A DNA stretch of 64,000 bases from a candidate division KSB1 bacterium (GTDB lineage Bacteria; Zhuqueibacterota; Zhuqueibacteria; Residuimicrobiales; Krinioviventaceae): positions 1,426,001 through 1,490,000 of the forward strand of contig JAXHMJ010000005.1 of NCBI GenBank assembly GCA_034521575.1, written 5' to 3'. Each line of letters opens with the position of its first letter. The stretch's first letter is position 1. Shown here in pieces: positions 28,212 through 45,744 of this stretch. A program made the position numbers and the translations under genes. Below the pieces are notes generated by a model. That model was given only the letters and a program-made list of their open reading frames with translations, was not told the origin of the DNA and ran no database searches.

Positions 28212-28287
28212 ATGACGGTTGTCGTCGGTTATTGCAGTTGAAAACCATTAGACAGTGACAAGTCTATACCCGCAGAGTTTTTATAAT

Positions 28288-29664
28288 ATGAATCCATTGA
28301 GCATAATACCGCCTGTCGACGACCTTTTAAATACATCCGAGGCCGTCGCTCTAATAGACGAGTACGGCAAACAGTCCGTCAAAGCTGCCATACAATCCGA
28401 ACTGGTGCAAATACGAAAAAAGATAATAAACAAATCGGGTCAAACGACAAGAGCAGCATTAATTGAACACATTCTGAAAAGTATCCGGGAAAACCTGACT
28501 TTTGAATTCCGCTCACGCCTCGGCTATGTGATCAATGCGACGGGGATCATTCTGCACACCGGATTGGGCCGCGCGCCTCTTTCGGAATCCGCCGGAGAGC
28601 ATATCCAACACGTCATAAAGGGATATTCAAATCTCGAACTGGATATGGAAAGCGGCAAACGCGGCGACAGAATGACTCATATCCGGGACCTGTTGTGCAA
28701 ACTTGCAGGTTCTGAAGACGCCCTGGTCGTGAATAATAACGCCGCGGCGGTTTTCCTGAGCCTGAACACACTGGCCTGCGGCAAAGAGGTTCTGGTGTCC
28801 CGGGGGGAATTGGTGGAAATCGGCGGATCATTCCGAATCCCTGATATCATGCATAAAAGCGGTGTGATCATGCATGAAGTCGGTACAACCAATAAAACCA
28901 AACTCTCTGATTATAAAAATGGTGTATCTGAACACACCGGGGCTGTCATGGTCGCACATACATCCAATTACCGAATAACCGGATTTACAGAGACCGTCGC
29001 CTTGAACGAGCTTTGTGATGTCGCACACTCGCATAACATGCCGGTGATTCACGATCTGGGAGCCGGTGTGATACATGACTTGAGAGCATTCAATTTACCG
29101 TATGAGCCCCTTGTTCAGCACAGTCTTCACGCCGGTGTTGATGTGGTCACATTCAGCGGTGATAAGGTTCTGGGGGGACCCCAATCCGGTATTCTCGTCG
29201 GGTCCCGTTATTATCTCGAGCAGATTTTTGAAAATCCGATTATGCGCGCGGTCAGATGCGGAAAACTGACGCTGGCAGGATTGGAAGGCACATTAAAACT
29301 CTTTTTCAAGGCTGAATTCCCCCAAAATCATAAAAGTATGCAACTGTTAACAGATTCTGTTGAACATATTGTAGAAAAAGCAGAATACATAGTATCCCGA
29401 CTGCATACCGACATCCGGACTCGCTACCGGGTCAAGATTGAAACATGCACAAGCCAGCCCGGCAGCGGCGCGCTGCCCACTGAAGAACTGCCCAGCCGGG
29501 CCATCGTACTCGAGCATTCATCACCGCACAAAGTCGCCGAACACTTGCGGAAAAGCGATCCGCCTGTCATTCCATATATCTACAAAGGCCTTGTTTTTTT
29601 AAATTTACGTACGGTTGACAAAACCGAACTGGAACCATTAACAAACGTTCTAAATCAGCTATAA
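28288..29664 (+). CDS. selA: L-seryl-tRNA(Sec) selenium transferase
   Basis: The 458-residue protein (from ATG 28288; a GTG at 28255 is also possible) is full length for SelA. VINATGIILHTGLGRAPLSE, DALVVNNNAAAVFLSLNTLA, SRGELVEIGGSFRIPDIM and TFSGDKVLGGPQSGILVG, whose Lys holds PLP, are the key segments. It turns Ser-tRNA(Sec) into selenocysteinyl-tRNA(Sec). selB, selC and selD are not in the window. A strong terminator follows directly. Confidence 0.96.
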   Translation: MNPLSIIPPVDDLLNTSEAVALIDEYGKQSVKAAIQSELVQIRKKIINKSGQTTRAALIEHILKSIRENLTFEFRSRLGYVINATGIILHTGLGRAPLSESAGEHIQHVIKGYSNLELDMESGKRGDRMTHIRDLLCKLAGSEDALVVNNNAAAVFLSLNTLACGKEVLVSRGELVEIGGSFRIPDIMHKSGVIMHEVGTTNKTKLSDYKNGVSEHTGAVMVAHTSNYRITGFTETVALNELCDVAHSHNMPVIHDLGAGVIHDLRAFNLPYEPLVQHSLHAGVDVVTFSGDKVLGGPQSGILVGSRYYLEQIFENPIMRAVRCGKLTLAGLEGTLKLFFKAEFPQNHKSMQLLTDSVEHIVEKAEYIVSRLHTDIRTRYRVKIETCTSQPGSGALPTEELPSRAIVLEHSSPHKVAEHLRKSDPPVIPYIYKGLVFLNLRTVDKTELEPLTNVLNQL

Positions 29665-29754: not shown

Positions 29755-31092
29755 CTATTTAATCAAAGTCATTTTTCTGATTTTTGTATACGGCCCGGTA
29801 CTCATTTTGTAAAAATACGTACCGGCGCTCATCTGTGAAGCATTCAGGGTGATATGATGAGACCCGGCGGGCATCGTGCGATCAATGAGTACCTGAATAC
29901 GTTTACCCAGCAGATCATAGACTTCCAGGGTGACATGCGTCTCTTTTTTCAACTCATAAGAGATGGTGGTTTGGGGATTGAACGGATTCGGAAAATTTTG
30001 CTGCAAGGCAAATTCATGGGGAACAGCCTTGAACTCGCGAACCGGAGAATACTCAAAACTTCCATCCGTATCCACCTGTTTCAGGCGATAGTAATAACTC
30101 CGGTCTGAGGCGGGCACAGTATCCAGAAAAGAATATTCTTTTGCAGCGCTGGACGTCCCGGCGCCGGGCACAAACCCGATGACTTGCCAATCAGCCTGAC
30201 TTGCGCCGGCTCGCTGAATCTGAAATCCATAATTGTTGGTTTCCGTCGCTGTCTGCCAGGTCAGCAGGACACCGTCAACGCTTTGTGTGACCGAAAAAGC
30301 CGCCAATTCGACCGGGATGACCTGTTCAAAATTTGCGGTATAGGACTCGTCTTCTTCCATAATGAAAACGACCGTTTCATTGGTGTCCGACTCTGCATCC
30401 CACGTCCATTCGATAAATTCATACAGTACAGCATCTTTGCTGGCTGCGGCCAGCCAGACGGTATCACCTTTCTGGACGTTATAGGAAGGATCAGCCGCCG
30501 AATAGGCAGCCGACTGGGTGAATTTGGCAAGAATATCACCCATCGTTTCGTCATTCACGCTGAGATCAAGATCCAGTTCCTCTGCATTGATTTCCACGGC
30601 AGCAGTGCCTTGACCTTCATATTTTAATGAATCAATCGGTATTTCCTCAGAGGTGGAAGGGTCAAGATTGGTCAATTCTTCATCATTGAACACATAAACT
30701 TCATCTTCAGCCGCCTTGTAGACGGCCAGTTTAATCCTGTGACCCTCAATAAATCCCAGTTCAGTAATGAGACCACTGGATCGTTCCGCCTTGTAAGCTT
30801 CAAACCAGAGTATACTTTCATTCACATCCATGCTGGTGTATGAACTTGTCAGTGTTTTCATACCGACACATATTTCATTACCTTCTACCGTGTCGAACGC
30901 GCCTATTTTGTCTCCGGCAACCAGATTCGTTTCATTAAAACCCGCATCAATAGAAACACTGGTTACATATATCTGCATGGGGAATTGTGTACTCTCGGGA
31001 TTCTCAAACATCTCGGGAGTAATCTCCGCTTGTACTGTACTTGCTACAAAAGTAAGGCAGCACAGCACCAAAGTCCTCAACATACCTTTCAT
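29755..31092 (-). CDS. Secreted surface protein with FlgD-type C-terminal sorting domain
   Basis: ATG 31092 follows TGAGGTCAATC; a Sec signal ends at VQA. The next 120 residues (QIYVTSVSIDAGFNETNLVAGDKIGAFD...GLITELGFIEGHRIKLAVYKAAEDEVY, abridged) carry a degenerate copy of the GDEIAVYD module found in the two neighbouring proteins. A middle fibronectin-like part (LAAFSVTQSVDGVLLTWQTATETNNYGFQIQR) leads to the C-terminal sorting domain LQQNFPNPFNPQTTISYEL...GTYFYKMSTGPYTKIRKMTLIK. In related phyla this domain is exported by a type IX-like route and attached to the surface. Function of the rest unknown. Confidence 0.78.
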   Translation of the reverse strand: MKGMLRTLVLCCLTFVASTVQAEITPEMFENPESTQFPMQIYVTSVSIDAGFNETNLVAGDKIGAFDTVEGNEICVGMKTLTSSYTSMDVNESILWFEAYKAERSSGLITELGFIEGHRIKLAVYKAAEDEVYVFNDEELTNLDPSTSEEIPIDSLKYEGQGTAAVEINAEELDLDLSVNDETMGDILAKFTQSAAYSAADPSYNVQKGDTVWLAAASKDAVLYEFIEWTWDAESDTNETVVFIMEEDESYTANFEQVIPVELAAFSVTQSVDGVLLTWQTATETNNYGFQIQRAGASQADWQVIGFVPGAGTSSAAKEYSFLDTVPASDRSYYYRLKQVDTDGSFEYSPVREFKAVPHEFALQQNFPNPFNPQTTISYELKKETHVTLEVYDLLGKRIQVLIDRTMPAGSHHITLNASQMSAGTYFYKMSTGPYTKIRKMTLIK

Positions 31093-31198
31093 GATTGACC
31101 TCATATTTTTGTACATTCTAAATGTAATTTACAATGGTTTCGGTAAAAATTCAAGTTTTTTACCAAGCCTTTGCAAATAAACATCACATCGTTCTTGT

Positions 31199-31978
31199 TC
31201 ACCGTATCAGGGACATTTTCCGGGTTTCCTGATACATGTCCGTTGATAATCTGTAAAAAAACATCCCGGATGCGACGGGAATACCCTGCTCATCAGTTCC
31301 GTCCCATTGTACAGAATAGGTCCCATTCCTCTGGATATCGTTCACCAGCTCCCGTATATGCCTTCCCGTCAGGTCGAATATATTTAAAGCCACATGACCG
31401 GTTCGAGACAGTGAATAGCAAAGAGTGGTCACCGGATTGAATGGGTTTGGAACATTTGCATCTAATCTAAAATCATTGTTAACCTGTTCTGCTTCACTTA
31501 CATGGCTATGTGCTCCGCCATGGTGAATTTTTATTGCAATTGAACTCATTTCTGTTCTGTAAATCCCATCTACAGGTTCACCGGTATTGGCATTCAAAAA
31601 CTCAATATCATCATAATCAATTATCGTTTCTTTTTGATCAGAAAAATCCCAAAACCTGAACCGAAGCGTATCGCCTTCATTAAAACCCACCGTATTTGAA
31701 TCACTCAACCCCGCTCGTAAAATCTCGTATTCATCAGGAGCCGGGGCCAATTGTTGTTCCAACACAAAAGAATCAACCAAAAGCGTATCCGGGTTAAAAA
31801 CAGCAATTTCATCACCGCTAACCATATGCCGACCGTTATATGTCGCTTCGATCACATAAATGGTCATGGGTTGATACGGATTTTGATCCGGTGGCTTGAA
31901 ATGCTGTCCTTTCGCCATACCGGCGAGCAAACATACAATTAAAACAAAATACTTGATGCTCAATCTAAACAACCTCAT
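31199..31978 (-). CDS. Secreted surface protein with one GDEIAVYD module and sorting domain
   Basis: The 259-residue protein has a signal peptide ending near GMAKG, a single module (NPYQPMTIYVIEATYNGRHMVSGDEIAVFNPDTLLVDSF... GFNEGDTLRFRFWDFS), and a C-terminal sorting domain (LDANVPNPFNPVTTLCYSL...SGMFFYRLSTDMYQETRKMSLIR). It is close to the minimum form of the architecture seen in the two flanking genes, suggesting domain shuffling within the cluster. It lies 41 bases after the giant protein's stop in the same direction, so the two are probably co-transcribed. No enzymatic motif seen. Confidence 0.75.
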   Translation of the reverse strand: MRLFRLSIKYFVLIVCLLAGMAKGQHFKPPDQNPYQPMTIYVIEATYNGRHMVSGDEIAVFNPDTLLVDSFVLEQQLAPAPDEYEILRAGLSDSNTVGFNEGDTLRFRFWDFSDQKETIIDYDDIEFLNANTGEPVDGIYRTEMSSIAIKIHHGGAHSHVSEAEQVNNDFRLDANVPNPFNPVTTLCYSLSRTGHVALNIFDLTGRHIRELVNDIQRNGTYSVQWDGTDEQGIPVASGMFFYRLSTDMYQETRKMSLIR

Positions 31979-32019
31979 GTTAAAAAGCCGGGGGCGGTTT
32001 CAACCGCCCCCGCTTTGCT

Positions 32020-35000
32020 TTATTTTGCAAACATCATTTTACGGGTTTGAGTAAAGTCACCGGATTTCAGGTGGTAAAAGTAAATACCGGTTGCAACCTG
32101 ATTGCCGTAACGATCCGTACCGTTCCAGACCACGGTGTGATAACCGGCTTTTTGCTGAGTGTTCACCAGAGTGGTCACCAATTTACCGGTCACATCAAAG
32201 ATCTGAACGGTTACCTGGTTATCCGCGGGCAGAGCATAATGAATGCTGGTAGACGGATTGAACGGATTCGGGTAATTCTGTTCAAGCGCAAAATCCTCGG
32301 GCAGTTCCGCCTGTTGTGCAACTTTTGTGTTGATATTGACAACTGCGGTTCCCATTTGCGAGAACAGAGCCGGAGCCATGGATTCACCGGTTTTCGGGTC
32401 GCTGTACTGTACAGCTTTGGCGTCAATGTTCAGCAGTTTGTTTTCCGCCTTGCTCCACAGTTTAAATGTCATCGCGTGACCTTGAACGAATCCCGGAGCA
32501 TTTCCGTCAGTAGCAGATGCTTTGATCAGCAATGGCTGTTCCTTGGAAACCGGCTGACTGACCACAGCGGCGCCGACGAGTGTTTCGCCGTCATAAACCG
32601 CGATTTCATCACCGACCTGAACATCATAGTCATTCACTTTGGCTTCCGTGACATAGACGGCCATAGGCTTGTATGGATTGTCCATACGTTCCATCTCAAA
32701 GTATTGCGGCATCTGTTCCACAGTTTGTTCAGCAACTGCCTTGGGAGTACTGCTGGGACAATTGACAGTGAACGTACCGCCGCCATCGACTTTGACGTAA
32801 TAGCCTTCACCCGCCTGAACATTACCGATTTTGTTCTGCCAGCCTGAGAAGAACAGTTCTTCCAATGGATTACCTCTTTCATCCAGAGCCTTGACAAATA
32901 CACCCTGATTGATGAGAGTCTGGAAGAATTGCTGCGCATCCTGACTTGAACCCAGGCAGGGATAGCTGACAATGTTCCATCCATCATTCAGCGATATATT
33001 TAACGGAGTCTCCAAACGGGTTCCGCTGACATGCAGCACGCAGGGGCCGTCAACATTGATATAATAGCCCTGTTCCGGCTGCCAGTTCCCGATAAAGTTC
33101 TGCCATTGACCGAAAAGTACTTCAATAGAACCGATACCGGGACCGCCTTGTACTTTTTCAAGATTGGATTCAATTTGATTCAGAATACCGTCCGAGCCGT
33201 TTGTATCGAACATATTATGACTGCCGGTAGGATTGACAGCCAATGAGAAGATATGCCAACCGGCTTTGCTGAATTCAATATACTGGTTGTACATGGCGTC
33301 CGCCATCGTAAACTCAATCCGGACAGACTGTCTGTAATCAAATATATACGTATTCGGTGTTGCGGGATTGACATATTCATCCACATTCACTTTAAAGAAA
33401 TCGACAACCGGTACGATATATTCCTGCTGCTGACTTTGATCCCACACTCGAACCGTAACCTCGTGTCCGGGGGTAAACCCGTCTTTATCAGGCGTGGTTT
33501 CATCATCAGCTGAACAGGTAATCGTCAGCGGATTCTGAGGTGATATAACAGCGCTTAGCTGGCTATAGCCTACGCACATATCATTATCATAAATCGCAAT
33601 TTCATCGCCGTATTCCATAGGAACACCCGCTTCAAGATTGGCGTCTGTGACGTAAGCCGTCAGCACCTGATAGGGGTTTTTACCGAGCCAGATCAACTCG
33701 TCACGAAAGTGCGTGTTGGTAATGACTGACTCTTCCAGCCCCAGGGTGAACAAGGCGCCTTCGGATCTCAAACCGCCCAGAGAATTGCGGTTGATGATAA
33801 CCGGACTGGGCTGATCAACATATTCAGCGTTGTCGTATTCATTCGGGCTACCCTGTAGCCGCCACTGGTTCTCAACATCCTGTTCATTACCGTGACGACG
33901 AATGATACGCAGGATCTTCAACATCCTGGTATTCGGTAAATCCGTCGGCAATCAGTTCCAGATCAAAATAGCTTTGGGAATACGTGCCGTTTGCCCGAAT
34001 ATCCCAGTAGAAATCCGGATAACCGCCGATATCGCGATTGGCTTCAATCCCGTTCTCAATCGGCAGACCAACATCGCCTTGAGGGGATTCCGAAACGTGT
34101 TTTACAGTCAGTTCAATTCCGCTCGGAATCGTCGGTTGCGCTCCGATCGGCTGGAAGGTAATCACAGCCGGACGATAGGCAAACCGGTTCCCGACCGGAA
34201 ATTCACTGCGCTGGAAGGTTGAGGTTGCCAGATTACCGGTATTCACCATTCCTTTCCGGACATTGCCGACCACGTGGCTCAAATCATCATCACCGACATC
34301 AGAGCGGTCAAATCCCTGTCCGTCCGGCGGCGCGGGAATCACAAAGGCATTGTCATCCTGAGTGGCGAGCAAGCCATTGCTGAAAAAGATAACACCGGTT
34401 TCAATGTCTCCGCCCTGCAGTGTGACCATCGAGTCGGAATTGGTTTTTGCCACCCGCAGATTAGCATTGGCAACGCCACCGCCGGTCAGGTCCATACCCG
34501 CCGAGGGCACATGAAGCATCTGCGCGTTGGGTCCGGCAAATTCCAGAGGTGCGTGGAATTTACATTTCGGATCCGTGGCAAGATTAAACGCATTGGATTC
34601 GTTTGCAAAATATACATCACCCATGGTGGTGATTTTGCCGAATGTCTCTACATTGTTTTTCACATGCAGAGAATTCAAACCGCTTACCACAACCGGGGTC
34701 ATTACCTGTGTATATTTATTTGCAATATTTCTATATCGGGTAAACTCTAACCGTTCAACCTCCGGCGGAAGTTCCGGACCCGTTACCCGATCCGTACCAT
34801 TGTTATAATAATAAACCCAAATACCGGAACCGTAATTCGTTGACGCTGTTCCTAACAGCTCCAATGTTCCGTCAACAACTTCAATCACAGCATCGTTGGC
34901 AACGGTGAATACATTGCCATCCGGTACCTGAACGTTACCTCTGTAATAATTCATGGTGTCATTAACGGTTCGACTGCCCGGCAACACCATATCAACCGAT

Positions 35001-38000
35001 GCGGCTGTGGCGCTGTCGTTTACCGTCGTGACCAGGGTTGTGGGTGCGGCAGGCCATATCTCATCAGAGATCGGATGATCACTGTCACACACCAGATTCA
35101 GACGAATTGTCCCTTTGTAATCCGGTGGATCATCAAACGTACCATCCTCGAAAGTAAAGGTCACGCCATTCGACATGGCAAGTTTGCCGTCATGATTGAA
35201 CTGATGCCCGTCACCGATACGCAAATCAAAACGCTGGGTGACTGTAAAATCGGCATCTTCGGTTGCGGTAAAATTACCGTTATAGATCAGACTGAGATTC
35301 GGTATGGTGAATGCAGTTGCACCCTGTCGGAAGGTATTGGTATTAATAACCAGATACCCTGTTGTTGCCGCATAGGTGCCGTCATCACGATGATAATGCC
35401 CGTTCACGGTGATATCAATAGCGCCGAAATTCAGCAGACCATCGCCGTGGCGGAACCAACCATTGACATCCAGAGCCGGATTCGCCTGAGCACCGGACAG
35501 ATTCACATCTTCCAGAACCGTCAGATGATTCAGACTGGGTGAATCCTCGATCATCATTTCCATGGGCGGTGTTAAACTGGCCAAAAACAGCGTATCTGCA
35601 CCGATCACGGAACCATCTTCATGGAAATTGAAATGCTTTCCACGCAGATGCAGCTCTCTGAATAATCGAATGGTGCCCTGTATCAGAGTAAAATCACCAT
35701 CCAGATACAGGTCCCCGGGAGTGCCGACAGGCCGCAGTTCAAGCTTGTTGGCCGCATTATCCAAATTAACCACAACATCCGCATCAATATCCGGATCGTT
35801 GCCGCCTATTCGCTCCAAACCAAGACGAACAGTACTCGGATGATCAAACAGGAGATAACCCTCGTCACCCAGTGTTGAGGAACCGCCCTGGAAATTATGT
35901 TGTTTGGTACCGGACATGAACCAGTAGACAAAATCACTGACATTAATCGCGGCATCCGCAACGTGTCTCAAGTATCCGCCTTGATTCATATTGGATAACA
36001 GAGTCAAATTCGCGCCCGAGCCCATAAAAATATTTTCGATATGAGATTGACTGCTCGGTGCAAAACGGATCGCCAGTGAAGAGATACTGCCGGCCGGGTT
36101 GTTCTGAAAGCTCAAACTGCCGCGTACAGCTGATGTGTCGCCTGCGATCAAATTATCATTCATAAAGTATTCCGTGTAGAGAGCCGGCGCATCATAGATC
36201 ACATTGCCCTGTGACAGGGCGGAAACATAAGTATCGGGCAAACCGCCGGGGTCATCTCCGGGCGCTGAACTCAGACAGTTGATCGTTGTACCACTGGGAC
36301 GAGACAGCACAAAAATGCCTCGATCAATATAAAGCGGCGGTGTCGGAGTAGCCAGTGCATTTTCTGCCTGAACGCTCTGCTCCTGCGCCGATTCACGTAT
36401 GGGCACTATGGGTGTATGTTCATTGGCGAGATCACCGTAAATCGTCGCATTGCTGCCCATCATCTGCAGATAGGTACCGGTCGCGATGATCAGCGCCTGA
36501 TCTTCATTGACATTCAGCGACCCGTGCACGGTGGCATCGCGACTCAGATAAATGGTACCGCGTCCCGGGGCCGTAAGACTGTTGGTCGTTTCAACAGACA
36601 GATCGTTCAAATGCGAACCGTCGGATGGAATTTCATACCCGGATTCTTTGTCTTTGCCGATATACGCCACATTCACGCGTGTGGTGTCGCCGCTGTCGTC
36701 AAAAAGCGGCAAAGCAGCCAATTCACCGCGATTGCGCACGATGGTCGGCTGAACACCGGTGGTTTCATCCATATTAAAGATAATATAGGCGGGACCGGAA
36801 TTATCAACTTGTCCCTTGACCAGGTACATATGTTCTGTACATCTCAGCGTATCACCGAGAAAGATATCAAGACCGCCGGCATTGGCGTCGTTGTTAAATG
36901 CAATATTGGCAAATTCTCCGTCACCGGTCACAAATTGGGGTGAGGCGTTACCATTCATTTCAACATGGCCCAGGTTCAATGATTTGTAACCCGCGTCGTT
37001 GGTAAAGGTACCGTTCGCCATATAGGGCGGTGTATCACTGCCGACGATAAGATGAAAATCGCTTAGCGTAATATCGCCGGTCTGGAAATGCACATCATCC
37101 AGAACACGCAGCTGCCCGCGAAAATCATCGCCGATAAACACCACCTCATTGTTGCCGTTATTGATCGTCAACGGACCAAACCAGAGAGCGGCTTTCTGAC
37201 GGCCGAAAATGTACTGATTGATGCCGCCGTTGAACAGCAGGGTGACGGCATCCATGTCCGTATGATTAAAATCCGTGACCGTGCTGCTGCCGAAGGAATC
37301 AGTGCCGAAAATCGTGGTATCGGACTGAATCGACAAGGTACGGGTACCGGAATTAGGTCCCATGCTAAAGTCACCGCCCAGGAACTTGGCCGGGCTGCTT
37401 TTGATAATGACAGCAGAATCGTTGGTCGCCGGATTAAATTTGACCAGTCCGTTGACGAGATTCAGCCCGTTGAGGACAACTTTACCGTCATTGCGGAAAA
37501 AGATCTCACCGCCGTTCATCTCCGATGTGGTATTATTGGCAATGTAAACATCGCGCGGCGCCGCCGCCAACCAGCTGACCACAATCTCCCCGCGCTCTTC
37601 ATTGGACAGTCCGTAAATCTCGTTGCCGTCCGTTCCGGAATGCGGGATTTTGACTTTGATCCAGCGGGATTTGTTGGTGACTTTGCCGATGCTTTTGTCG
37701 GTTTTGAGCTGCAGAGAGTCCATACCCGTGCTAATAAAGCGGGAGGCCACAATATTGGGCAGTTTGTAATCGCCATCTACTACGACTGTATACCCACCGC
37801 TTCCGCCTTCCATACGGAAATACAGGGCGCCGCCGCTGGTGTATTCAAAATCAGCTTCTACAGTATGTTGATCACGCGACCAAACCACCAGCGTATCTTG
37901 TAAAATAACCGGACCCTTGTTATGCCAGTCTCCACGAATCCCCTTGACCTGAGCCGAATCCACAAATCCACCCCCTGATTCATTGGCCAGGGCCGGTAAT

Positions 38001-38695
38001 TGATAGGTGGTTCCGGTTTCAATGGTTAAATTATTGATCGGGAAATCGCCACCATTAACATCTAAAAATCTGTGTCCCGAGGAAGAAGTAGGATCAAATG
38101 GATTACCATTCTTGTCAATAAAAGGCGCATTCACAACCGGATGCTCGGGTCCTGAAACAATCGTATCTCCTGACAAGGCATAAGTCAGATTGCACCACCC
38201 GGAAAACTGCGGTGAAGAGTCAAATGTCCCATCCATCCTCATAATTTGAGACCCGCTGGCCAGAATCAAGTTATACGCATTGACAAACTCACCGCCACCC
38301 CAGATTTTCAGGTGTTCATCAATGAGAAACTCGCCAAGAAAGGTGTGCCTGCGGATGGTTTCCCATTTCTGAACGACGGGGGCATCCGATTCTCCCTGGT
38401 ACGGGGAGAAATACATGTCCTTGTCGTCCGTGGTATCGATATTGACGGGCTGGTATTCGTTGCCGTTCGCGTACGCCACATAGATCGTGTCGTTCGCCGA
38501 CGCGGCGCGAATCGCATCATTAATAGTCTGTTTGGGTCCCTTGACGCCGTCAATCGGCAGGGAGTAAAGACCATTATACCCGTCGTTCCCCTTCAGGACG
38601 TGCACGTACCATTTTTCGGCATGCACCACGCCCAGCATACTCAGTGTAACCAGGATGATCAACACAAAGTACGCTTTTGAGTATCTCAGGTTCAT
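32020..38695 (-). CDS. Giant secreted surface protein (about 2,220 residues), interrupted by a 1-nt frameshift
   Basis: ATG 38695 follows GGAGGTCATA. The first frame (to TAA 33887) has a Sec signal ending VVHA, then a long repetitive beta-rich region beginning KWYVHVLKGNDGYNGLYS with DUF1565-like features and many N/D/G-rich strands that suggest a parallel beta-helix. The second frame (33951-32020) continues with RIIRRHGNEQDVENQWRL, two GDEIAVYD modules, two GWNIVSYP/GYYVKVDG repeats and a C-terminal sorting domain (LEQNYPNPFNPSTSIHYAL). Removing one C at 33912-33913 joins the frames (DVED-LRIIRRHG). An adhesin or cell-envelope role is inferred. A sigma-54-like promoter lies upstream. Confidence 0.78.
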
Positions 38696-39170: not shown

Positions 39171-40602
39171 ATGAAAAAAGACAGTCTCTCTTTTATTTCA
39201 AACCCTGTATTTCAAATAATCGGAGATACAGCGGATCAATACGGCGTCCAGGTTTATGTGGTTGGCGGTTATGTCAGAGATCAGTTCCTCGACAACAAAT
39301 GCAAAGACATTGATGTTGTGGTGATCGGTGACGGACCGCAGTTCGCCCGTCAGGCCGCAAACGCGCTGGGAACCCGACACATCTCTGTTTACAAACGCTT
39401 CGGCACCGCCATGCTTCGCTACAAAGATTTCACCCTGGAATTCGTCGGCGCGCGTAAAGAAAGCTATCAACGGGATTCCCGAAAACCGATCGTTGAACAG
39501 GCAGAGCTGAGCGATGACATTGCCCGCCGGGATTTTACCATCAATGCCATGGCCATCGCGCTGAACCGGGAAAATCGCGGCGATCTCGTTGATCTCTACC
39601 ATGGCGTGCATGACCTGGAACATCATCTGATTCGAACTCCGCTAAATCCTGAGCGTACCTTTTTTGACGATCCCTTGCGCATTATGCGGGCCGTCCGATT
39701 TGCTTCCCGGTTTCAGTTTAAAATAGAGAAAAAAACACTAAAAGGTCTCAAAAACGAGGCGCACCGGTTATCCATCATTTCCCAGGAACGAGATCACCGA
39801 TGAACTGGTCAAAATATTGCTCACGCCCCAACCGTCTGTCGGACTTTCTCTGATGGACGAAACCGGCATATTCAAAGTTATTCTCCCTGAAATCGAAAAG
39901 CTTAAAGGGGTCGAACAAATCGGCAAACATCGCCATAAAGACGTTTTTGATCATACACTCAAAGTTGTGGACAATATTGCGCAAGTCAGTAAAGATCCGC
40001 GCCTGTTAATCACAGCGCTCTTTCATGATATTGCCAAACCGGCCACAAAAGCCTATGTCCCTTCTGTTGGGTGGACCTTTCACGGACACGAAGAAGTGGG
40101 CGCCCGCATCTTTGAACGTCTGGGCAAACGCCTGCGCCTGTCCAATGACACCATTCAATATGTCAGCAAATTGATCAGACTGCATCTTCGGCCCATCAGC
40201 CTGTCCGAGGAAGGCGTAACTGACAGCGCCATCCGGCGTCTCATTTTCAAAGCCGGAAATGACATTGACGATCTGATCAGTCTGTGCCGCGCGGATATCA
40301 CCTCGGGAAATCCCAAACGCGTCAAGCAGCATCTGGGCAACTTTGATTGGGTTGTAGAGCGCATTCAAAAAGTCGAAGCAAAAGACCATATCCGCGAATT
40401 TCAACCGCCGGTTCGCGGCGACGAGATCATGCGGGTTTGCGGCATTCCGCCCGGCCCGTCGGTGGGCAATATTAAAAATGCCATTCAGGACGCCATATTG
40501 AACGGCGACATTCCAAACGAGCATGAGGCAGCATACGAATATATGCTGAAAATTAAAGACCGCTATCTTTCCCGGTCCCGGAGAAACCATCAGTCGGGGT
40601 GA
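39171..40602 (+). CDS. CCA-adding tRNA nucleotidyltransferase with HD domain, interrupted by a 1-nt frameshift
   Basis: Two adjoining frames form one enzyme. The first (39171-39803) is the nucleotidyltransferase domain: YVVGGYVRDQFLDNKCKDIDVVV has the GGxVRD and DxD catalytic motifs, followed by RRDFTINAMAI and RPxx-type RFASRFQFKI. The second (from about 39793 to 40602) carries the rest of the head-neck region (LMDETGIFKVILPEIEKLKG) and an HD domain (HRHKDVFDHTLKVVDNIA...LFHDIAKP). The frames join by removing one base of CGAG at 39789-39792, giving QER-ITDELVKILL. It adds or repairs the 3' CCA of tRNA. Being essential, the break is likely an artefact. Confidence 0.85.
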
Positions 40603-41473: not shown

Positions 41474-42724
41474 TCACTCTTTTATATTGGCGTTTTGATA
41501 TTGCCGGGCCAGTTCCATAAACAGTTCCAAATCATTTTCAACAGAGGCCTGGTTGCCGTCAAAATAAAACACCCGCACAGGAAAATTGTTGTGCTCCTGA
41601 CAAACTCGCGGATATACCGCTTCGGTGACAATACCGTTCATGCAGGAAAACGGGCTGATATCAATCACCCCGGCGGCGCCATGATGATAATACCAAAGCG
41701 CTTTGCCCATACTCATCACCATCTCTCCGTTGGAACCTTCGCGCGGCAGATAAGGCCGGGAAAGTTCCAAAATCTCACGAACGTGATGCGGCTCGGGAAC
41801 ATTTTTAAAATCATCTTTAAAAACATTTGTAATCTTTTTCTCATCATGATGCATAACCGCCTGCTTTATTTTACAGCCCAGCATCTGAAAAGACCAGGTT
41901 TGACCTGTATCTTTCAAGCGCATTTCTTCTTCATCATGAGTGTACCAAACCCATTCTGCAATATCGGAAATCCAGACCACTCCATTGTATTTCTCAATGT
42001 GTCTAAACATATCCTGATTGCTAAAGCTGTTAAACCGGCAAAAGATTTCTCCAACCACGCCGATAATCAGTTTGTCCTGCGAGTAATCAGCAGGGATGCC
42101 GCGAAACGCTTCTCTGGCCGCCGATAAAACGTTTACGATCTCGCTTAATCGTTGAGAGTGAGGCAGCGCCCGAACTTCAATAGCAGAACATAGTTCTTTT
42201 AGGGACTGTTCAAACACCCGATCCGCATCGCCCGGGTTCAGTTCATAAGGGCGCGTGATTAAATAAAGTTTTCTCAGACAATCCGACGCCACAACTGCCT
42301 GCCAACCGGTGCGCACCAGATTTTGTGCTTCTTCGCCGATATCCTGGTATCCATTTGTGCTGGTCGGGGAACAAATCATGACATTTTCTTCCCGGTCGGC
42401 AAATATTTTCCGGCAAAGCGGCATATAATGCCCGAATCGGCAGGGACCGTTTGAAGTGGGCAGCATAAACGCCGTATGATCGGGATCATAATCCGGCATT
42501 TCCGTTACTTGCAGAAAATTACCCAAAACCACGGCCTGAGGCAGACATTCATCCCCGGAAAGAACTTTTCGCGCGGATTCCAGAGTTTTGGCATCACTTG
42601 CCGGTGAAGGCCGGGCATTCACGCCGATAGACCGGAAAGCGGCCGCCATGCACGCAGCGCCCTCATAAGACATTTGCGGAATATATAATGTGCGCTCCTG
42701 CAGTGGAATCGATCGGTTATTCAT
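41474..42724 (-). CDS. 2-hydroxyacyl-CoA dehydratase-type component, activase partner
   Basis: The 416-residue protein belongs to the 2-hydroxyacyl-CoA dehydratase-related (HgdB-like/DUF2229 C-terminal) family: SYEGAACMAAAFRSIGV, LSGDECLPQAVVLGNF with a Cys, TSNGPCRFGHYMPLC with two Cys, VVGEIFCRFNSFSNQD, and ISPFSCMNGIVTEAVYP. The spread of Cys fits [4Fe-4S] binding. In many genomes this part is fused to the activase; here it starts at the activase stop (TGATG). Its substrate is unknown. Confidence 0.8.
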   Translation of the reverse strand: MNNRSIPLQERTLYIPQMSYEGAACMAAAFRSIGVNARPSPASDAKTLESARKVLSGDECLPQAVVLGNFLQVTEMPDYDPDHTAFMLPTSNGPCRFGHYMPLCRKIFADREENVMICSPTSTNGYQDIGEEAQNLVRTGWQAVVASDCLRKLYLITRPYELNPGDADRVFEQSLKELCSAIEVRALPHSQRLSEIVNVLSAAREAFRGIPADYSQDKLIIGVVGEIFCRFNSFSNQDMFRHIEKYNGVVWISDIAEWVWYTHDEEEMRLKDTGQTWSFQMLGCKIKQAVMHHDEKKITNVFKDDFKNVPEPHHVREILELSRPYLPREGSNGEMVMSMGKALWYYHHGAAGVIDISPFSCMNGIVTEAVYPRVCQEHNNFPVRVFYFDGNQASVENDLELFMELARQYQNANIKE

Positions 42725-45700
42725 CAGACCAGACTCTTTATTTTTTCCCGGGATTGACCTAAAACATGTTTACTTTGCAAAAAGGCCTCACATCGAGTGA
42801 GAATACCGGCATCGTTGCCATGCCCGTCAAATTGCAATGTCAAATAAGGAGAACCCAATGCATCGCGCACAAAATGCTTAATATAGGAATCCGGACCGCA
42901 CTTGAAATTCGTCAGATAAATCAAGTGTAAATTGTCATGCTGTCCTGTAAATTTGGCGGCCTGCAGGATTCGATATCCATAGGTCCAGAACATATTTTCA
43001 TGCACATCAGAAACGTTTATATTCTCAATGGGCAGAAAATCCATGGGGATGATATTGATCCCGTACTGTTCTCGGAGTTTGTCAGGAATACTCAAGTTCA
43101 CCCCGTTATCATAGATGTTATAAGGCCGTCCGACGATCACCACAGCGGATTCGTTGTTTTTTACAATCCGGTCCAGCACGGTTTTTCCGGTCTCTTTGAC
43201 CCGTTTTTTAAACATCCTCTGAGCATCGTAAGCAAAATCTACAGCCTTTCCACATCGACGCCGTGACACCCCGAGTCTTTCGGCAACCGGATACAACTGT
43301 TTTTTGATAAAATCGGGGCCATATCGAAAGCGCAGAACGGGTGACAGCATTTTATCGCGCATGTCCGGGGAACCGGCATTCATCGTCACCAAAGGAAACG
43401 TTTGACCCCACGGGCAATACCAGGAAAACACATCGGGGGTTTGCGCTTCCGAGTTGACAGATACCGGTGCAAATATAAAATCCACGTCTTTATCAAAAAG
43501 AGTTGCAATATGCCCGTGAGCCACCACGACCGGAAAACAGGGCTCCGCAATGCACAGTTCCCGTCCGGCGCTGATAATCTCATTGTTCGTCGGTTCGGAT
43601 AAAACAATCTCGGCTCCCAATTGACGGAAAAATGTTTTCCAAAACGGAAAACGATCATAATAGAAAAAAGTCCGGGGAACACCGATTTTTGTATCCAGGC
43701 CGTCAGGACCCGGCAGTTCCTCAACCAGCCACTCCCGATAAGCCGCAAACAGATCAGGAATCGTGGGCTGCAATTCCGCTTTCCGACAAGTGCGAAACCG
43801 ATTTGAACATTTATCTCCCCAAAACGTTTTTTCACCCTCGATGGTAATTTGCTGAATATTGCAGTGATTTGTGCACCCCTTGCAGACAAAATGCCGGATG
43901 TCAAAGTCAACTTGATTCAGATCAAAACCGCGAAATCTTGAGCGGACCTGGGTCAAATTTATCTTGTCCCGCGCCAGCAGGGCGGCACCGATGGCTCCCA
44001 TCACGCCGTTATGAGGCGGCACAATAATCGGTTTGCCCAGAGTGGTCGCAAACGCAGCCGCTACCGCTTTGTTATAGGCCGTCCCGCCCTGAAAGAAAAT
44101 AGAATCTCCGATTTTGCGTCCACGCACAACCCGGTTCAGATAATTCTGCACAACGGCAAAGGCAAGACCGGCTGTTATTTCTTTAACCGCATGCCCTTTC
44201 TGCATATAAGCTGAGACATCTTTTTCCATAAATACGGTGCATCGTTCACCCAGCCGAAGCGGCCGGTCACTTGATAAAGCGTAATCGGCAAACTGCTGTT
44301 CAATTGAAATCCCGAGTTTGTCCGCCTGTTCTTCCAGGAAAGACCCGGTACCCGCTGCACAAGCTTCATTCATCGTAAAATCCACGACAATACCATCATC
44401 GATCGAAATAAATTTCGAATCCTGTCCGCCTATTTCAAATATGGTGTCAACATTGCCGTCAAGATATGTCGTGGCGATATGGGTGGCGCCCGTTTTGTGC
44501 GCGGTAATTTCATCATGGATGACATCCGCCCCGATCAATTCACCAATCAGTTCACGACCGGAACCGGTTGTCCCCACCCCCTCTATTTGTATTTGGTCCT
44601 GCCAGCGACGGGCAAGCCTTAACAGTTCTCTTTTGACCACATCCACAGGGCGTCCCTGAGTGGCGGTATAAATTTCATCCAGCACACATCCGGTTTCATC
44701 GATTAAAACCAGATTCGTACTGACCGAACCAATATCCACCCCCAGGAATGCATTCAATTTTTCTATGGGTCTGATGGCGTCGGGTTGCGGCGCCTCGATG
44801 TACTGAACCTGTTCCAATTGTAACGCGGGGTAACTGGTGTTTTCTTCAAAATCGGTCAACGCTTCCAACCGCGCCCAGCGGCCACGAGACACACCTTTTT
44901 CTCCCGCGTTTAGAGCGCAGCCCAGAGCGCCGACAAAGGTATGCAAATCAGGCACAATGAGTTCATCAGTGGATAACCCGCAAATATCCTTAACCGCCTG
45001 GACAACCCCGTCATTGGCAGCCACACCCCCGACAAAAGCCACCCGGGGTTCCAGTGTTTTTCCACGCAGGACGGTGCCTTTGAAATTTCTCACCACAGCC
45101 TGACACAGTCCCTTGAAAATAACAGCCGGGGAATATCCGCGCTGCTGGGCGTGTATCATATCTGATTTGGCAAACACCGAGCATCTTCCGGCAATAGACG
45201 CACCGGTTTCGGCTGTGGCCACCAAATCGCCGATTTCTTTGACATTATACCTGAGCCGTAATGCCTGTTGATCGATAAAAGAACCCGTACCCGCTGCGCA
45301 ATCGCCGTTTCGTTCATAATCAAGAATCCGAACTTGACCGGTTCCGGGATTTCGGTGCACCTTGAGGAATCGCGAACCATCGCCTCCGATTTCCAGTATC
45401 GTTTTTACATCGGGAAACAGTTCAAGAGCGCCAGCAGCGATTGCTTTGAATTCATTCAATACATTCAAATCAAGAACATGTGCAATCTGCACCCCCTGGC
45501 TTCCTGTTACTGTGATTTTGAACTCATCTTTAGGAAACATATCAGCAATAGAATCAAACAATATCCGTGCAGCTTTTTGTGGATTCCCCCTGACAGGTTC
45601 TTGTGCATAGAGGAATAAATTTTCGCCAAACCTGTATTCACGCCACCCGTTTACCAAAGCATTCGGTATCGTGTTTTTCTCACATATCACCACCGCCTTG

Positions 45701-45744
45701 GCATTGACGGAACCAACATCCAAACCAATCCTTAAATCCGGCAT
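42724..45744 (-). CDS. Acyl-CoA dehydratase activase (BadF/BcrA/HgdC-like), double ATPase
   Basis: The 1006-residue protein has two ASKHA-type ATPase domains: IGLDVGSVNAKAVVIC at the N-terminus with CAAGTGSFIDQQALRLR, and LGVDIGSVSTNLVLID in the middle with CAAGTGSFLEEQADKLG. A CKGCTNHCNIQQI segment can bind an Fe-S cluster, and a C-terminal DUF2229 domain follows (IGVPRTFFYYDRFPFWKTFFRQLGAEIVLSEP, abridged). HgdC-type activases use ATP to drive one electron into a dehydratase. The double form with DUF2229 lacks a defined substrate and is common in anaerobes. It is coupled to the partner gene. Confidence 0.85.
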   Translation of the reverse strand: MPDLRIGLDVGSVNAKAVVICEKNTIPNALVNGWREYRFGENLFLYAQEPVRGNPQKAARILFDSIADMFPKDEFKITVTGSQGVQIAHVLDLNVLNEFKAIAAGALELFPDVKTILEIGGDGSRFLKVHRNPGTGQVRILDYERNGDCAAGTGSFIDQQALRLRYNVKEIGDLVATAETGASIAGRCSVFAKSDMIHAQQRGYSPAVIFKGLCQAVVRNFKGTVLRGKTLEPRVAFVGGVAANDGVVQAVKDICGLSTDELIVPDLHTFVGALGCALNAGEKGVSRGRWARLEALTDFEENTSYPALQLEQVQYIEAPQPDAIRPIEKLNAFLGVDIGSVSTNLVLIDETGCVLDEIYTATQGRPVDVVKRELLRLARRWQDQIQIEGVGTTGSGRELIGELIGADVIHDEITAHKTGATHIATTYLDGNVDTIFEIGGQDSKFISIDDGIVVDFTMNEACAAGTGSFLEEQADKLGISIEQQFADYALSSDRPLRLGERCTVFMEKDVSAYMQKGHAVKEITAGLAFAVVQNYLNRVVRGRKIGDSIFFQGGTAYNKAVAAAFATTLGKPIIVPPHNGVMGAIGAALLARDKINLTQVRSRFRGFDLNQVDFDIRHFVCKGCTNHCNIQQITIEGEKTFWGDKCSNRFRTCRKAELQPTIPDLFAAYREWLVEELPGPDGLDTKIGVPRTFFYYDRFPFWKTFFRQLGAEIVLSEPTNNEIISAGRELCIAEPCFPVVVAHGHIATLFDKDVDFIFAPVSVNSEAQTPDVFSWYCPWGQTFPLVTMNAGSPDMRDKMLSPVLRFRYGPDFIKKQLYPVAERLGVSRRRCGKAVDFAYDAQRMFKKRVKETGKTVLDRIVKNNESAVVIVGRPYNIYDNGVNLSIPDKLREQYGINIIPMDFLPIENINVSDVHENMFWTYGYRILQAAKFTGQHDNLHLIYLTNFKCGPDSYIKHFVRDALGSPYLTLQFDGHGNDAGILTRCEAFLQSKHVLGQSREKIKSLV

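Follow-up and report, generated by a model that had tools for sequence, protein, structure and literature searches.

Four copies of one module in three adjacent surface proteins

The window analysed here is a 64,000-nucleotide (nt) stretch of the genome of a candidate division KSB1 bacterium (GCA_034521575.1, contig JAXHMJ010000005.1, positions 1,426,001 to 1,490,000). Its minus strand encodes three adjacent secreted surface proteins, a giant protein followed by proteins of 259 and 453 amino acids (aa), which together carry four copies (A to D) of a module of about 125 residues that we call M (Table 1). M is an uncatalogued and widespread domain family of secreted surface proteins. A first-pass annotation made from the sequence alone had recognized two copies in the giant and one in each of the smaller proteins, and this was confirmed with left-one-out profiles, in which a profile of three copies is searched against the fourth. 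The scores were 59.9 bits for A, 83.3 for B, 56.9 for C and 36.0 for D, against a maximum of 12.6 bits among shuffled controls (best of 2000 shuffles per copy); the four-copy repeat is therefore real, D included. Identity to the first copy in an alignment of the four is 20-31%. All four also match a profile of 78 family members (E 5e-38 to 4e-20) and share its core, GDEI-x-V-(F/Y)-D and G(F/Y)-x-x-G, and because A to D are themselves among the 78 rows it is the left-one-out scores that constitute the independent test.

The description of M as a real module of surface proteins also stands, the carriers being secreted proteins with sorting tails of the type IX secretion system (T9SS): TIGR04183 scores above cut-off in all three, SprA_N is present in the genome (E 1e-39), and signal peptides were judged by eye only. 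The same annotation had placed every copy before a sorting tail, which is accurate as it stands for B, directly preceding the tail of the giant. A and D are not directly adjacent to a tail, as copy B and a pair of further domains (W-W, below) stand between A and the tail and D is N-terminal, about 190 residues before it; C is N-terminal in its short protein, with the sorting tail after it. In relatives, the gene after the giant encodes the ortholog of the 453-aa protein, whose last 267 residues are 45% identical to a 745-aa protein that adjoins the giant of genome G036.

The giant itself, previously described as one protein, is read here as two overlapping frames, with both module copies in the second. 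Its ortholog in G036 is a single 2192-aa frame aligning with both: residues 1-1595 of the 1606-aa frame align on residues 5-1567 (32% identity over 1686 columns), and residues 3-643 of the 643-aa frame on residues 1560-2192 (45% identity). Because this single frame spans both, the break at 33887-33951 is a frameshift within one gene. Indel errors in the assembly are its likeliest cause, and another gene of the window, for CCA tRNA nucleotidyltransferase, split likewise into 39171-39803 and 39817-40602 (TIGR02692 positions 13-209 and 218-458), points the same way. Elsewhere in the genome, the SprA match (G000:C5:127777-129078) lies in a 1359-aa frame, compared with 2064-2124 aa in three relatives, perhaps reflecting another break.

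Table 1. Coordinates, in window positions, of the three carrier proteins and their parts
Feature	Position	Strand	Remarks
Giant protein, N-terminal 1606 aa	33887-38707	-	No Pfam or NCBIfam match
Giant protein, C-terminal 643 aa, other frame	32020-33951	-	65-nt overlap with the first frame; break near 33905-33925
Module copy A	33304-33696	-	643-aa frame; first M of the M-W-W-M cassette
W-W, two "GWNxxS...EGYxV" domains between the modules	32764-33294 (approximate limits)	-	Conserved in alignment A5 (51 rows)
Module copy B	32326-32703	-	643-aa frame; second M of the cassette
T9SS sorting tail of the giant	32032-32274	-	FlgD_ig 4.7e-12, Por_Secre_tail 3.9e-8, TIGR04183 4.8e-12
259-aa protein: signal region, module C, T9SS tail	31199-31978	-
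Module copy C	31520-31909	-	259-aa protein
453-aa protein: module D, middle region, T9SS tail	29755-31116	-	Por_Secre_tail 3.8e-11
Module copy D	30583-31008	-	453-aa protein

Eight matches to the 78-row profile were found in the whole genome, four in the window and four elsewhere. One of the latter, borne by a 2311-aa protein that has InlB-type repeats, is close; the other three are distant, a 1975-aa protein carrying two of them and a 452-aa frame the third. A locus with two frames of 1388 and 452 aa that overlap by 16 nt (L011:5370-10879) resembles a single broken surface protein and contains repeated "DFGDAP...GEVEDY" units together with one module. A further candidate at G000:C5:1311192 (L008, E 0.008) was rejected as a chance match inside an unrelated gene.

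The cassette, its partner gene and their distribution

M is one piece of a larger and more interesting unit, a recurrent M-W-W-M cassette together with its polar gene pair. We defined the cassette as two M with two W domains between them, about 285-350 residues apart; in 53 module pairs the module starts lie 288-336 residues from one another. The two W copies follow the consensus GWNxxS ... W-x-N-x-IG ... EGYxV, in which the row of the window is included, and gave no Pfam or NCBIfam match in the cassette of the window. Window positions 32314-33723 match the cassette model over positions 2-436 of 439 (E 3e-127, the window being one of the 51 rows), and a second cassette of the same genome, outside the rows of the model, matches it at 6e-74. 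The model matches 33 of 82 genomes of the phylum at E <= 1e-30, some of these matches being partial. The usual place of the cassette is between a large N-terminal part and a C-terminal export or anchoring domain, while M can also stand immediately behind the signal region. Tandem arrays of M also occur, with four in a row in one locus (L121) and two in another (L110). Matches to PUA_4, CarboxypepD_reg and HYDIN in alignment A5 come from three or four of its 51 rows, in which the two modules are taken to flank something other than W-W.

To count gene order we took pairs of neighbouring M-carrying genes on one strand, separated by less than 400 nt. Unexpectedly, the order is polar: the module is C-terminal in the first gene and N-terminal in the second 32 times (26 plain cases, plus 6 in which the second gene has the module near both ends), and the reverse order was seen once, with an ambiguous first gene. 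Gaps between the paired genes are mostly below 150 nt, and an N-type gene comes next after 31 of the 56 C-type genes for which 800 nt or more of downstream sequence exist. The window obeys this order, with the giant (A, B) first, then the 259-aa protein (C) and then the 453-aa protein (D), and the same order is found in orthologs of the locus; the 643-aa frame was labelled "NC" by our script owing only to the frame break, which truncates the giant.

M extends beyond this locus and beyond KSB1 and Calditrichota. A five-row profile detected at least one copy in 33 of the 82 phylum genomes (E <= 1e-4), one of which has 23. A 9-residue pattern, run against 84,980 species genomes, yielded 167 relatives, and 76 loci were kept, a set that is biased towards relatives of copy B. 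The kept loci include 48 from Bacteroidota, five from Thermodesulfobacteriota, four from Fidelibacterota, two each from Ignavibacteriota and Chlorobiota, and one each from Calditrichota, Cloacimonadota and Kiritimatiellota, with KSB1 besides. A search of other KSB1 and Calditrichota surface proteins, which had been suggested at first pass, is thus positive for both groups and reaches other phyla too. The carriers are varied: the cassette of Desulfonema magnum stands in a gingipain-type Peptidase_C25 protein (L058:2635-7494), and a carrier in another Desulfobacterales bacterium combines M23 and SLT domains and ends in a match to Dockerin_1 that is close to the threshold. In other Desulfobacterales carriers the C-terminal stretches are dockerin-like by eye only, and further carrier domains include CotH kinase, LTD, PKD, Fib_succ_major and LamG.

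Known families and the predicted fold

Scans of the three proteins against Pfam-A and NCBIfam returned only their sorting tails above cut-off. The same scans of 51 cassettes and 78 modules gave scattered single matches, with no family common to more than a few members, and among the 78 modules M matched no Pfam-A or NCBIfam family above its curated cut-off. The impression at first pass that no named domain fits was therefore well founded, as no Pfam or NCBIfam family covers the module. Profile searches against solved structures gave no sequence match (best E 0.015, for A6), and in the literature on the motif, on T9SS cargo of KSB1 and Calditrichota and on Desulfonema dockerins we found nothing on an M domain.

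Several named candidates were set aside. Weak matches of copy B to the SH3 domain of kalirin (Pfam E 0.06-0.1; PDB 1wfw, E 0.3) are not common to the family, and ankyrin/DARPin matches of a four-row profile disappeared with the 78-row profile. TANFOR (TIGR02542), an N-terminal domain of T9SS-linked polymorphic toxins of Bacteroidota (PMC7073777), resembles M in its length of about 130-147 residues and in occurring N-terminally in large, repeat-containing secreted proteins encoded by T9SS genomes. M, in contrast, is also found at C-termini, and no toxin domain was seen with it; TIGR02542 matches none of the 78 modules, and its best score in the genome is 12.1 bits (E 0.44), against a cut-off of 67 bits.

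Structure prediction, another check proposed at first pass, gave a confident all-beta fold. The AlphaFold2 model of copy B, computed from the 78 rows, has a mean predicted local distance difference test score (pLDDT) of 95.2 and a predicted template modelling score (pTM) of 0.89, with eight strands and no helix of four or more residues. Strongly conserved acidic and glycine residues occupy its turns (G35, D36, E37, D42, G48, G75). A Foldseek search of the module against the Protein Data Bank (PDB) returned nothing at E <= 0.001; the best match was at 0.049, and template modelling (TM) scores were at most 0.42 among the first 50. The prediction thus supports M as a confidently folded all-beta module that would have no close relative among solved structures; as the comparison covers solved structures, a new fold is not proven by it. 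The 470-residue cassette was likewise predicted with good scores (pLDDT 92.8, pTM 0.81) and had three matches in the PDB under E 0.001, all to multi-domain beta-sandwich pilins. These stalk domains of Gram-positive pilins (BcpA, PitA; Cna_B type) also form chains of beta-sandwiches, but they differ from the cassette in that TM scores are 0.12-0.14, identity is 8-9% and there is no sequence match. As judged from the models, the resemblance is in kind only.

Possible roles of the module and the origin of its copies

The most likely role of M, which we put forward tentatively, would be that of an extracellular stalk or assembly module, and it is suggested by the fixed M-W-W-M cassette, the tandem arrays, independence from T9SS (below) and the polar gene order. 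The T9SS tail would perform export, with M acting afterwards as a rigid structural and assembly module. The cassette would then form a stalk that keeps the giant's large part at a distance from the cell, and the second protein, presumably made from the same operon, would use its N-terminal M to dock either on that cassette or on a surface partner common to both. Several points weigh against this interpretation. Architecture is the basis for both the stalk and the docking step, and the conserved acidic and glycine residues in the turns could equally mark a metal or ligand site. Adjacent N-module genes are missing for 25 of the 56 C-type genes with enough downstream sequence, the loci entering the gene-order count were picked by similarity to copy B (though not for their gene order), the N and C labels depend on thresholds, and the 32 gene pairs are not 32 independent events, because several come from the same genomes.

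A broader proposal, which we regard as speculative and unlikely, is that of a two-protein surface-assembly system shared by several phyla, in which the upstream giant, through its C-terminal cassette, would bind the N-terminal M of its downstream partner after export by any route. Such binding would link co-encoded surface proteins into one structure. A comparable idea is that of cohesin and dockerin, which similarly join co-encoded surface proteins through dedicated beta-sandwich modules, and one Desulfobacterales carrier, as noted above, ends in a near-threshold Dockerin_1 match; M differs in having no cohesin match and in that the modules of both genes here come from the same family. In T9SS genomes the secreted proteins number well over a hundred (this one has 147 tail matches), and most of their parts outside the tail are unnamed. 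With its confidently predicted fold, fixed cassette and polar gene order in several phyla, the M family would allow many "hypothetical" giant surface proteins to be annotated, and it gives a testable hypothesis for the way in which co-encoded surface proteins join.

The serious rival to a stalk or assembly role, which we consider possible but less probable, is that M binds a ligand, for instance in a glycan- or calcium-dependent manner, so that several secreted proteins would attach to the same surface or substrate and neighbouring genes would be co-expressed since their products act on the same target. It earns this standing because conserved acidic residues lie at turns, with conservation of D36, E37, D42 and D70 at 79-99%, and because the carriers are so diverse, ranging from a C25 peptidase and M23/SLT proteins to CotH-kinase/LTD, Fib_succ_major/LamG and PKD proteins. 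The tandem arrays and the fixed spacing of the cassette look structural, however, and neither a match to a carbohydrate-binding family nor a solved binding module at E < 0.001 was found.

A further alternative concerns the fold and is compatible with either functional interpretation. M might belong, as a divergent branch, to one of the known beta-sandwich families (transthyretin/CarboxypepD_reg, Cna_B or FimA-like fimbrial) and have escaped profile searches. We think this improbable: weak fold matches do cluster in that region (Epf adhesin, transthyretin, intradiol dioxygenases and FimA prepilins, E 0.1-0.6), but the TM scores given above are accompanied by root-mean-square deviations of 6 A and more, and no profile matched.

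The adjacency of the three proteins had been taken at first pass as a sign that the module spread by local duplication. The 259-aa protein, consisting of M and a tail, does resemble the last part of giants (E 4e-44 to that of G035), and G036 has no counterpart of it between its giant and second gene. In a tree of 52 modules (supports given as bootstrap/Shimodaira-Hasegawa-like approximate likelihood ratio test), however, starred support links copies A and D to the modules that occupy the corresponding positions elsewhere: A pairs with the first module in the G036 ortholog (99/83), and D with the N-terminal second-gene modules of G036 and a Calditrichota bin (100/97), so that D is not a degenerate copy, contrary to the earlier view. 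B groups with the C-terminal module of a CotH protein (L057; 98/94), and C falls more weakly among N-terminal modules (95/78, on a long branch). Forcing the four copies into one clade cost 45.6 log-likelihood units and was rejected by the approximately unbiased test (p = 0.00109). Because of this test and the position-wise grouping with other genomes, the locus is best described as holding old, mostly position-specific copies; local duplication is largely refuted and very improbable as a general account, and only C could still be an old duplicate. Local similarity within some other loci (L080) indicates that exchange within loci also occurs.

The view that M belongs to the T9SS sorting signal, or is a recognition domain specific to that system, has next to no probability left and in its strict form is already refuted: M proteins of this genome and most relatives do end in a Por_Secre_tail or FlgD_ig tail, but M is often N-terminal and far from the tail, the genome has 147 Por_Secre_tail matches against 8 to M, and the complete chromosome of Desulfonema magnum has four M matches and neither a SprA_N nor a Por_Secre_tail match. 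M is not a T9SS signal, because that organism has it without a detectable T9SS marker; SprA_N is present in our genome and in three relatives. The type A sorting domain (PF18962, TIGR04183) and FlgD_ig (PF13860) are likewise beta-rich and occur in the same proteins as M, but they are separate, correctly annotated domains that adjoin it.

Beside the three carriers, the window encodes selA, for L-seryl-tRNA(Sec) selenium transferase (28255-29664; TIGR00474, E 1e-160), which suggests that the organism may make selenoproteins, and a 1006-aa protein with two acyl-CoA dehydratase activase stretches (42724-45744; TIGR00241).

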